From: Planctomycetota bacterium
GTDB taxonomy: Bacteria; Planctomycetota; Phycisphaerae; Sedimentisphaerales; Anaerobacaceae
Reading direction: 5' to 3'
DNA length: 64,000 bases
Assembly: GCA_030605475.1 (NCBI GenBank)
Contig: JAUWIG010000016.1
Coordinates: 1 to 64,000 of the forward strand
The translations under genes were made by a program, and so were the position numbers. The notes beneath the pieces are model-generated. The model was not told the origin of the DNA. It worked only from the letters and a program-made list of their open reading frames with translations, and ran no database searches. Shown in pieces: positions 5,613 to 16,855 of the stretch (positions are counted from its first letter, which is position 1; each line of letters begins with the position of its first letter).

Positions 5613-6655
5613 AAGAAGACCTGAATATCGAAGAGTTGCTGAATAGCTTCGTTGACGGGGAGTTGTCGGCCAGGCAGAGGACAGAGGTCCAGCGGTTGAT
5701 AGTGCATGATGCGCAAGTTGCACAGCGGCTGCGTGAGCTTGAGAAGTGTAAAATGCTGGTTGGTTCTTTGCCTCGTGCAGAGGCGCCGGCTGAGATGGCC
5801 GATGAAATAAAAACTTCGCTGGAAAGAAGGAGTCTTCTTGGTCAGCAGTCGTTAGGTTTTGATGAGCAGGCGGGGGAGAGGCATCTGCTGGTTCGCAAGG
5901 TTTTGTCTGCCGCTGCTATGATTGGGTTGGTAGCTATTTTAGCGGCGGTGATTTATACGATTGTCGGCCCTGAGAGCGTTCCAGAAAAGTCTGTTGTTAG
6001 TAGCGATTGGCGACGGCCGGTGAGAGAATTTGAGGTGGCCAAACCTGCGCCGAGCATAGTGGCAACGGCTGAAAAATCAATTGACAAGACAATTGCGATT
6101 GCAAAGCGTTTTAATGGCAGGGTTGAGCTGAAAACAAATAACTTGGTCGCAGTTGACGCATTTATCAACAGGGCGATTGAGGATAACGGGCTTTTGGAAT
6201 ACCGCAGTCCGAGAATCCGGGGCGACACACGCATACATGCTCTTAGTTGCAGCAGGGAGGCTCTGGGTTTGCTGTTGGCTGATTTGGAATATGTGTGGGA
6301 GAGGTTCGATTCGGCAACGTTGTTTGTCGAGACTGAACAGGCTGGCGGTGAGGTAGTGGTTGACGCGGTTACGGCTGAGCAAATTACCGAAATCGTTAAT
6401 CAGGACAGTGTTAAAGGGTGCATCAAAGTGGCAAAAGATTTTGCCGTTTTGAATACGATGACGGAGCTTTTGCCGGGTAAAGAGATGTTAGTTGCCGTTA
6501 ATGGCAGAGGCATGGATTTGATAACTATACCAAAGCCGGTCTTGACTACCGCCGTTAGGCGTCCTGCGGAAGGCGAAAAGACCATTAAAAGGCCGACAAG
6601 TGCGGAAGTTGGGGAAACGGTGCATCTGACCATTGTAGTTACAGGCGGGGAGTAA
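5609..6655 (+). CDS. Membrane-anchored anti-sigma factor
   Basis: 348 residues, starting inside the stop codon of the sigma gene. The N-terminal 90 residues (NIEELLNSFVDGELS, then charged helices) match the general pattern of anti-sigma domains, although the HxxxCxxC zinc motif of the zf-HC2 class is absent. A single membrane helix lies at about residues 98-120 (AAAMIGLVAILAAVIYTIV). The remaining 225 residues would lie outside the cytoplasm and have no recognised domain. The likely role is to hold the ECF sigma factor inactive at the membrane until a signal is sensed by the outer domain. Coupling and position give good confidence in the role. The sensed signal is unknown. Confidence 0.8.
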   Translation: MKEDLNIEELLNSFVDGELSARQRTEVQRLIVHDAQVAQRLRELEKCKMLVGSLPRAEAPAEMADEIKTSLERRSLLGQQSLGFDEQAGERHLLVRKVLSAAAMIGLVAILAAVIYTIVGPESVPEKSVVSSDWRRPVREFEVAKPAPSIVATAEKSIDKTIAIAKRFNGRVELKTNNLVAVDAFINRAIEDNGLLEYRSPRIRGDTRIHALSCSREALGLLLADLEYVWERFDSATLFVETEQAGGEVVVDAVTAEQITEIVNQDSVKGCIKVAKDFAVLNTMTELLPGKEMLVAVNGRGMDLITIPKPVLTTAVRRPAEGEKTIKRPTSAEVGETVHLTIVVTGGE

Positions 6656-15199: not shown

Positions 15200-15519
15200 T
15201 TACCCATTTTTGCTTTTACAATACCCAAAACCACAATTCCCGCCTGCCTGTCCTCGAATTCCGTTGTCGGGGGCCCCCGTACGCCGTAGACGGGGGTCAA
15301 CTAAATACTATTCACTAAATACTAACGACTATCCACCCTACCCGAAACTTCCCAATCCGTCAACACCGAAGGCCCCAACTAAAAACTAAGCACTTAAAAC
15401 TCAAAATTCAAAATTCTCAATTCTACATTCTAAATTCCTCTCGTAGCGCAGCGAAGACCCTCGTAGCGAAGCGGAGATCCCCGCATGTTGTTGGCGGGGA
15501 CCCAGTCTCTTTTGCCTTT

Positions 15520-15562
15520 CACTTCGACATTCGATATTCCTTGTTCGATATTCGATATTCCC
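15520..15562. repeat. Dispersed CACTTCGACATTCGATATTCC-type repeat, copy 1
   Basis: A 43-base stretch built from ATTCGATATTC words. It is nearly identical to 62053-62094, and its first half matches 10953-10975 beside groES. The repeated words suggest an expanded short tandem repeat that has also spread around the genome. Confidence 0.7.
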
Positions 15563-15830
15563 TTTCCTCCTCCGTCGTCCATCATCCCTCGCCCCCAACG
15601 CGCAACGCGTAACCCGCAACACGAAATCCGCGCAATCTGTGTAGCTTGTGCCAGTGCAAACGGGTATCTGTGGCTTAAATTCGTGTCAATCAACGTCAAC
15701 TTGTGCCATAGGTATTCGTGGCTCAACCCAGAACTCAACACTCAAAATTCAAAACTCCCCGCGTCCTCTGTGCCTAATTTTTCTTCGTGTTCTTCGTGCC
15801 TTCGTGGTGGAAAAGCTGCTGCAAAAAAGC

Positions 15831-15951
15831 GCACTTTTTCGCACTTTCTTGCACGTTTTTGCAATTTCTTACATTTTCTTGCAATTTTTACTCATTTTCT
15901 TACATTTTCTTGCAATTTCTTGCATTTTTTTGCACTTTTTTGCACTTTTTC
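15831..15951. repeat. Helically phased T-tract array with 10-bp period
   Basis: Twelve consecutive units of the form GCA(C/A)TTTYTT follow each other with an exact 10-bp period, with one 1-bp slip near 15890. T-tracts spaced by one helical turn are the classical cause of intrinsic DNA curvature, so this 120-bp segment should be strongly bent. It lies in non-coding DNA about 135 bases beyond the 3' end of tsaB. It is not a CRISPR array because there are no unique spacers. Confidence 0.75.
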
Positions 15952-16087
15952 TCCTACCCATTCCACCCAAACCCCACAAACCAACCTAACCACCCTCATT
16001 TTTGACCCAAAAACAAACATCCCCCAATGAAAAAACTCAAAATTTCCCCCATTTTTTTAAAAATCAGGATAATTTTAGTCCTCAATT

Positions 16088-16855
16088 TCAGCTCTTCCGT
16101 TGTTTCCCTGTCTCTTTAACATCAGGTGTGCGCAAATAGTTCGGCTGTAATGTCAAAGGGTCCGCAAACTCTGCGATTTGGGCTTTTTCCCAGCCGAGCA
16201 GATGGACTTTCTCGGCCTTTGGGTACCAGGTTGCCTCGTCCAAGAATCGGATGCCATCAGCCTTGAATTTGTCCTTGTAATATATCAGGCCTTCACCAAG
16301 CAGCCAGATGGGCTTTTCCCTGCGAGCAAACTTATCCAGGAACTGCGAAGCGGTCATTAAGGCATCCGGGATGACTTTTTCCCAGATTTCGTCTCTCGTC
16401 TCTCGTCTCTCGTCTCTCGTTTTTTGGTAAACGGCGATGAAGAATTGGCTGCGCTTGGCGTCGAGGATAACGGCGATATTCTCGATGCTCGGTGCTGGAT
16501 GCTCGATGCTCGATGCGTCTGCGGTGAGAGCGATTGCATTGGCGGCGATTACGTCTAATGTGTCAACCGCAACGATTTTTGCGGCGTTGGCCAGGTGCAT
16601 TGTTTTTGCGAAAGTTACAGCTATGCGCAGGCCGGTAAAGCTGCCGGGGCCGACAGAAATGCAGATATGCTCGATTTCCTGTGGCTTTCGGCTGAAGCGG
16701 TCCAGCAGGCGGTGAATGGCGGGAAGGAGCTCCGCACTGTGCCTCATTGGGCCGGAAAGAGCGGCTTCGGCGAGTATCTGTGCTCCAAGGGCTATCGCGA
16801 CCGAGCCGGTTCTGCCGGACGTTTCAACGGCTAATATCAGGGGTTTTTGCGTCAT
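16088..16855 (-). CDS. tsaB: tRNA threonylcarbamoyladenosine biosynthesis protein TsaB
   Basis: 255 residues. The ASKHA-fold start LILAVETSGRTGSVAI and the conserved ICISVGPGSFTGLRIAV identify TsaB, the partner of TsaD and TsaE in making t6A37 in ANN-decoding tRNAs. Two surface-loop regions are unusual. About residues 113-124 read as ASSIEHPAPSIE from a GATGCTCGATGCTC-like repeat (16491-16520). About residues 146-156 read as TRDERRETRDE from four perfect GTCTCTC units (16391-16418). Neither breaks the frame. The gene is alone on its strand here. Function is well supported, and the repeats probably sit in tolerant loops. Confidence 0.92.
   Translation of the reverse strand: MTQKPLILAVETSGRTGSVAIALGAQILAEAALSGPMRHSAELLPAIHRLLDRFSRKPQEIEHICISVGPGSFTGLRIAVTFAKTMHLANAAKIVAVDTLDVIAANAIALTADASSIEHPAPSIENIAVILDAKRSQFFIAVYQKTRDERRETRDEIWEKVIPDALMTASQFLDKFARREKPIWLLGEGLIYYKDKFKADGIRFLDEATWYPKAEKVHLLGWEKAQIAEFADPLTLQPNYLRTPDVKETGKQRKS
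16391..16418. repeat. GTCTCTC x4 microsatellite inside tsaB
   Basis: Four perfect 7-bp units. Because 7 is not a multiple of three, gain or loss of one unit would shift the tsaB frame. It could therefore be a phase-variable site or a fixed relic. Confidence 0.75.

Follow-up and report, generated by a model that had tools for sequence, protein, structure and literature searches.

The helically phased T-tract array at 15831..15951 (+) of the window, which is the whole 64,000-nucleotide stretch of DNA analyzed here, forms the expanded core, predicted to be curved, of a ~270-bp non-coding element scattered in intergenic DNA. The element exists in many copies, has a defined structure and is restricted to the family of the window genome. 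Judging from modeled curvature and from comparison of its copies, we think it probable (roughly 0.6) that it is a non-autonomous MITE- or BIME-like dispersed repeat found family-wide, whose curved core would be functional and whose tract phase would be under selection.

Phased T-tract array and its predicted curvature

The array consists of 12 tracts of the word GCA(C/A/T)TTTYTT running from 15831 to 15951; re-reading of the sequence confirmed these coordinates and this repeat unit, which had been given, as GCA(C/A)TTTYTT, by an earlier sequence-only reading. The words (beginning with GCA or ACA/TCA) start at 15831, 15841, 15851, 15861, 15871, 15881, 15892, 15902, 15912, 15922, 15932 and 15942. 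Of the 11 steps, ten measure exactly 10 bp and the remaining one, located at GCAATTTTTACTCA, measures 11 bp (mean step 10.09 bp), so that the earlier count of 12 units holds and the claim of an exact 10-bp period does not. Many of the tracts are TTTCTT and not unbroken T-runs. The central 11-bp step, GCAATTTTTACTCATTTT (15881..15898, +), is aligned with CAATTTTTGCTCATTTTT of other genera; since the two segments are counterparts, the array seems to have grown on both sides of the central one.

Tandem Repeats Finder (TRF) described the array as 11.7 copies of period 10 with 77% matches, and assigned the other tandem repeats of the window periods of mostly 7, 12, 14, 18-19 or 21, with a single further repeat of period 10 (two copies). 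By AAA/TTT periodicity at 9.5-11.5 bp, the array ranked first among 6388 segments of 121 bp across the 64 kb; its value of 4.23 compares with a maximum of 2.55 in 2000 same-base shuffles, 0/2000 of which reached the array. A coding reading was considered and rejected: ORFs cross the array (e.g. 15485-16030, +), the contexts of the copies differ and no ORF is conserved.

Curvature was computed with our own script by using two dinucleotide wedge-angle sets (Trifonov/Bolshoy and De Santis). Under both wedge models, curvature in the window peaked at 15800-16090, comprising the array and the segment at its right, and the lowest end-to-end ratios in the window all fell at about 15800-16000. The A/T tracts recur every about 10.0-10.5 bp through several turns and the model curvature is strong, exceeding that of composition-matched sequences in the two models, as is characteristic of phased A-tract DNA. 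The intrinsic curvature proposed on first reading is thus predicted by both models, and the curvature calculation suggested there as a check gave a positive outcome for this computed property.

Architecture of the element and its copies in the window genome

Left of the core lies a mosaic of 7-bp "text-like" tandem repeats (15396..15820, no strand assigned), which is found in many intergenic regions of the same genome and is outside the conserved core. Repeats of this kind crowd intergenic regions (window 15396-15437, 15523-15560, 16389-16420 and 16481-16516; loci L012, L014 and L017; loci L209-L223 of genome G018), and their units drift stepwise through gagcatc, cagcatc, gaacaac, gaacaat, gaactac and gaactat. 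Two 7-bp arrays, TCGTCTC and CTCGATG, sit within the tsaB-like gene at 16088-16855.

The left edge of the core, GCAAAAAAGCGCACTTTTTC (15821..15840, +), is found in the aligned copies of the window genome, and its counterpart in other genera is CTCAAAAAGCGCGCATTTTTGC, a GC-rich inverted repeat around an A-tract (seen in G107, G034, G106 and G027). The right-hand part of the array overlaps the A-region, a conserved segment CTCTTGCCTATTTTACCCAAACCCTACAA..CCCCCATTTTT.ACCCAAAAAC (15933..16039, +), which is matched at E=1.6e-22 by R1, a model of the type A segment built from ten sequences and using sequence only; curvature is predicted for the A-region too. The tsaB-like gene (16088-16855, -) has its stop codon within the final bases of the element's right end (..GGATAATTTTAGTCCTCAATTTCA; 16040..16090, +).

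A search of the window genome (2.40 Mb, 58 contigs) returned 30 places at E<1e-7, i.e. about 29 copies, because two of the places are probably overlapping ends of two contigs. The copies occupy >20 contigs and are placed between genes, with the good ones 77-92% identical; the element shares with MITEs that it is short, multi-copy, non-coding and intergenic. Aligned copies have in common the left edge GC-AAAAAA-GCGCAC, about ten 10-bp units and a central TTTTTACTCA, and they end on the right either in type A (the conserved C/T-rich segment) or in type B (AACTTGCGCAAATGATTGA). The word GCANTTTYTT is conserved within this genome alongside the phase. Small palindromes are inserted in some copies (CCGTTAGAGAAGAGTCTCTAATGG and CCCGCCTATGGCGGG; right ends of L011 and L016, A-regions of L005 and L029). 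The array is thus not a single site; the sequence-only reading is supported as to predicted curvature and overlooked the dispersed multi-copy element with additional conserved parts to which it belongs.

In a 449-kb sample of the window genome (the genomic background, window included), all clear R1 matches adjoin an array, and the top candidate for an A-region without an array, L088, proved on inspection to be a false match. The orientation of the right-hand neighboring gene was near even in the window genome and 16 to 30 in relatives, which is not significant. In the single-contig genomes G045 and G001, chromosome position could be followed through weak matches only, which lie on both strands, and each genome has two dnaA genes; no link of the copies to origin or terminus could be drawn. 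A role of the array as a nucleoid-protein site, in chromosome architecture or in replication, as first suggested, is putative.

Distribution in the family

With R1 at E<=0.01, 47 of the 89 family genomes had matches; they represent 33 of 45 genera and hold up to 19 copies apiece. Across 161 genomes of the order, 33 had matches at E<=1e-4, every one inside the family, and at this threshold 0 of 72 genomes from other families of the order were matched. A near-identical copy occurs in two genera (L184 of G040:C1 and L217 of G018:C12), a possible recent transfer or misbinned contig.

Conservation of predicted shape between genera

The copies were found without recourse to the DNA on the left side of the R1 match. 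With one copy taken from each of 18 genomes, the median pairwise identity of this DNA was 0.53, and in 18/18 genomes it exceeded in curvature, under both models, 95% or more of first-order Markov resamplings, which preserve dinucleotide composition on average and not exactly. When only bases strictly outside the R1 match were used, curvature exceeded that of at least 95% of composition-matched resamplings in 52 of 53 copies under the Trifonov model and in 51 of 53 under the De Santis model; the copies share descent within a genome and partly between genera, and counts of curved copies and of phase are therefore not independent.

The words of the arrays differ between genera and include GCAATTTCTT, TCTCTACTTT, GCGCATTTTT, TCGAATGTTT and GCTCGTTTTT. 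Tract type differs as well: T-tracts prevail in the window genome and G018, A-tracts prevail in G013 and G042, and G106, G107 and G034 have a mixture; counted on the same strand, tracts range from 1 A / 9 T in G018 up to 8 A / 1 T in G013. The period of the T-tracts was 10.25 +- 0.10 bp over 26 copies of the window genome, 10.05-10.45 bp in G022/G052 and 10.2 bp in G018, where the period and phase analysis disregards three wrongly delimited arrays of G074 (L148, L156 and L161). Pooled tract phase relative to the anchor had a coherence of 0.51-0.65 at 10-11 bp, 0.03 at 7 bp and 0.21 at 12 bp; the genus-mean phase coherence discriminates less (0.72 at 12 bp). Permuting the steps within an array usually left the coherence equal, and no phase correction beyond independent steps was detected within arrays.

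Core lengths across genera were 58, 64-67, 74-76, 86, 95 and 114 bp, with 124 bp for the window copy by manual count, and the increments are about 9-10 bp. Orthologous copies from two species (L122/L123) differ by 11 bp and also in many letters, and duplicates inside one genome (L126/L128) differ by about two units (turns). Slippage of a 10-bp tandem unit would by itself retain the period and yield such whole-unit length steps. The stronger arguments for conservation of shape are the exchange of A- for T-tracts and the arrays that lack tandem similarity. This computation across genera supports the proposal, made from the window alone, that shape rather than sequence is conserved: a phase of 10.05-10.5 bp is retained in relatives though the words differ, and related genomes were not found to carry the same words at other periods such as 7 or 12 bp.

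Amplification and ends

The multiplication of copies inside genomes points to a MITE- or BIME-like element. One common inserted segment like GTGTAATCTGTGAAATCTGTGG is borne by 9 of 17 fetched G018 copies. In the window genome, the left flanks of the copies can be sorted into a few classes with two to eight members apiece, made of 7-bp GAACTAT repeats, of other text-like repeats or of TCAATCATTTGCGCAGGGGGG, and the copied unit is therefore a mosaic.

Inverted ends of the TTAACA..TGTTAA type are imperfect and outdid shuffles at the 0.05 level in 6 of 18 copies; the distance between the end motifs is 255-275 bp in 18 copies. A second end pair, TCAATCA..TGCGCA / TGCGCA..TGATTGA, occurs in L025, L028, L061 and L062, and the left end is absent from many copies of the window genome. 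No target-site duplication was seen by eye at L025 or L028, no empty site was found at two flanking loci compared with a congener, where synteny is lost, and a scan with 16-bp end motifs gave no suitably oriented pair spanning a gene. The element probably works like a MITE; since neither a target duplication nor an empty site nor a transposase partner turned up in this non-exhaustive search, we do not file it as one.

Proposed mechanism and alternative explanations

According to our preferred reading, the element would be a non-autonomous repeat that relies on machinery acting in trans for its copying, and its curve would serve as a pre-bent platform where copying machinery or a host bending or bridging protein assembles. 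If the curve is such a functional platform, selection would act on tract phase. In the window species, the core would have been enlarged via 10-bp units added on either side of an ancestral CAATTTTTACTCATTTTT segment. We infer that the reader of the bend is either the copying machinery or a host protein; that DNA shape is the conserved property of a family-wide element, with a recombinase or nucleoid protein recognizing the curve itself, is a more tentative suggestion.

Host architecture offers a different account, which we consider rather unlikely. The curved core would be the site of a nucleoid-associated bending or bridging protein in an H-NS-, HU- or Lsr2-like role, and the repeat would have been retained since dispersed bends aid chromosome folding or insulate neighboring genes. 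The intergenic placement of copies, the change of words with curvature kept and the orthologous copy retained in two species are all consistent with it, but a copy number of 0 to 19 or more among family genomes is repeat-like, and the visible amplification inside a genome is unlike a fixed structural element. Simple curvature would moreover need neither a conserved A-region nor end motifs, and the copies follow no position or orientation rule that we could find. It is less probable still that the array is a plain minisatellite, that is, an old repeat with slippage of a 10-bp unit, no selection on shape and curvature as a by-product. Non-tandem separators or mixed A- and T-tracts with the phase kept (G042, G013, G106 and G014) argue against this, as do the many genera that reached one period with different words and the mostly non-10 periods (7, 12, 14, 18-19 and 21) of the other tandem repeats in the window; it would nevertheless account for the word common to units of the window genome, for the variation in unit number and for the equal coherence of permuted steps, by which no active phase correction is visible.

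A transcribed element, whether terminator, small RNA or other structured RNA, would fit the left edge, which can fold into a short GC hairpin followed by T's, and on each strand the window copy outfolds the majority of its shuffles (z -2.8 and -3.2). Against it, a search of 20 loci with Rfam gave 0 matches at the gathering score, there is no orientation bias relative to genes, and folding varies from copy to copy: that of the G034 copy falls short of significance (z -1.6 and -0.6), so that the GCA/TGC tandem units of the window copy are the probable source of its signal; we regard this explanation as very unlikely.

Relation to known repeats

BrickBuilt, a MITE with an internal minisatellite in Porphyromonas gingivalis (PMC4596501), is likewise a short intergenic repeat (19 copies per genome) in which a leader and a tail with inverted-repeat ends flank a tandem array; one or both ends are missing from most copies. 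Its unit is 23 nt whereas here it is about 10 bp, its text nowhere mentions curvature, and it is known from one species and a close relative, while the present element is family-wide and changes its words as the phase stays. REP/BIME and GTAG/CGTC-tagged palindromic repeats, as portrayed in PMC2817692 and PMC3733652, are similar in their many intergenic copies, modular build and candidacy as sites of architectural proteins; the REP described there are palindromes of 20-40 bp, whereas our element is about 270 bp, has phased tracts as its main feature and, on inspection, is no palindrome.

Phased A-tracts occur widely among bacterial genomes, where they play an unclear physiological role (PMC3940949, PMC3431218). 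The chromosomal periodicity (PMC3940949, PMC3431218, PMC4132750) likewise comprises A/T runs at the helical period that are read as intrinsic curvature, but it is a genome-wide statistical signal and the present element is discrete and dispersed, its flanks being conserved and as many as 12 of its tracts lying in register. What distinguishes the element is that it is discrete, multi-copy and family-wide, and retains predicted curvature and not sequence; it is a case where the recognized feature of a repeat may be shape. Its dozens of natural variants provide a means to test selection on bending and to identify the reader of the bend.

Similar arrays in other genomes

The exact array pattern was searched in 84,980 genomes, among which the window's own genome may be absent, and gave 17 scattered matches, one viral match and no word-sharing family; we therefore take the word to be specific to the window genome and the architecture not to be. 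Similar phased T-tract arrays occur in a KSB1 bacterium contig (L105, about 3424) and in a viral contig (L121, about 220), and L105 has TTTTTGGCAAAACTTAT in common with L070 of G051, which belongs to the window's family. G074, a genome from another family of the order, holds 12 copies of another curved element, unrelated to the present one, whose core also consists of phased T-tracts; it spans ~280 bp from GTAAGTCCTTATTTTACGTTG to AAGACTAAACAATTCGGG, and copies are 84-92% identical to the query copy (L148, L152, L154, L156-L164). In Histophilus somni (L110, about 5805-5892), a run of GCAAAAAACT 10-bp units lies right after a start-like ATG and looks slippage-prone.
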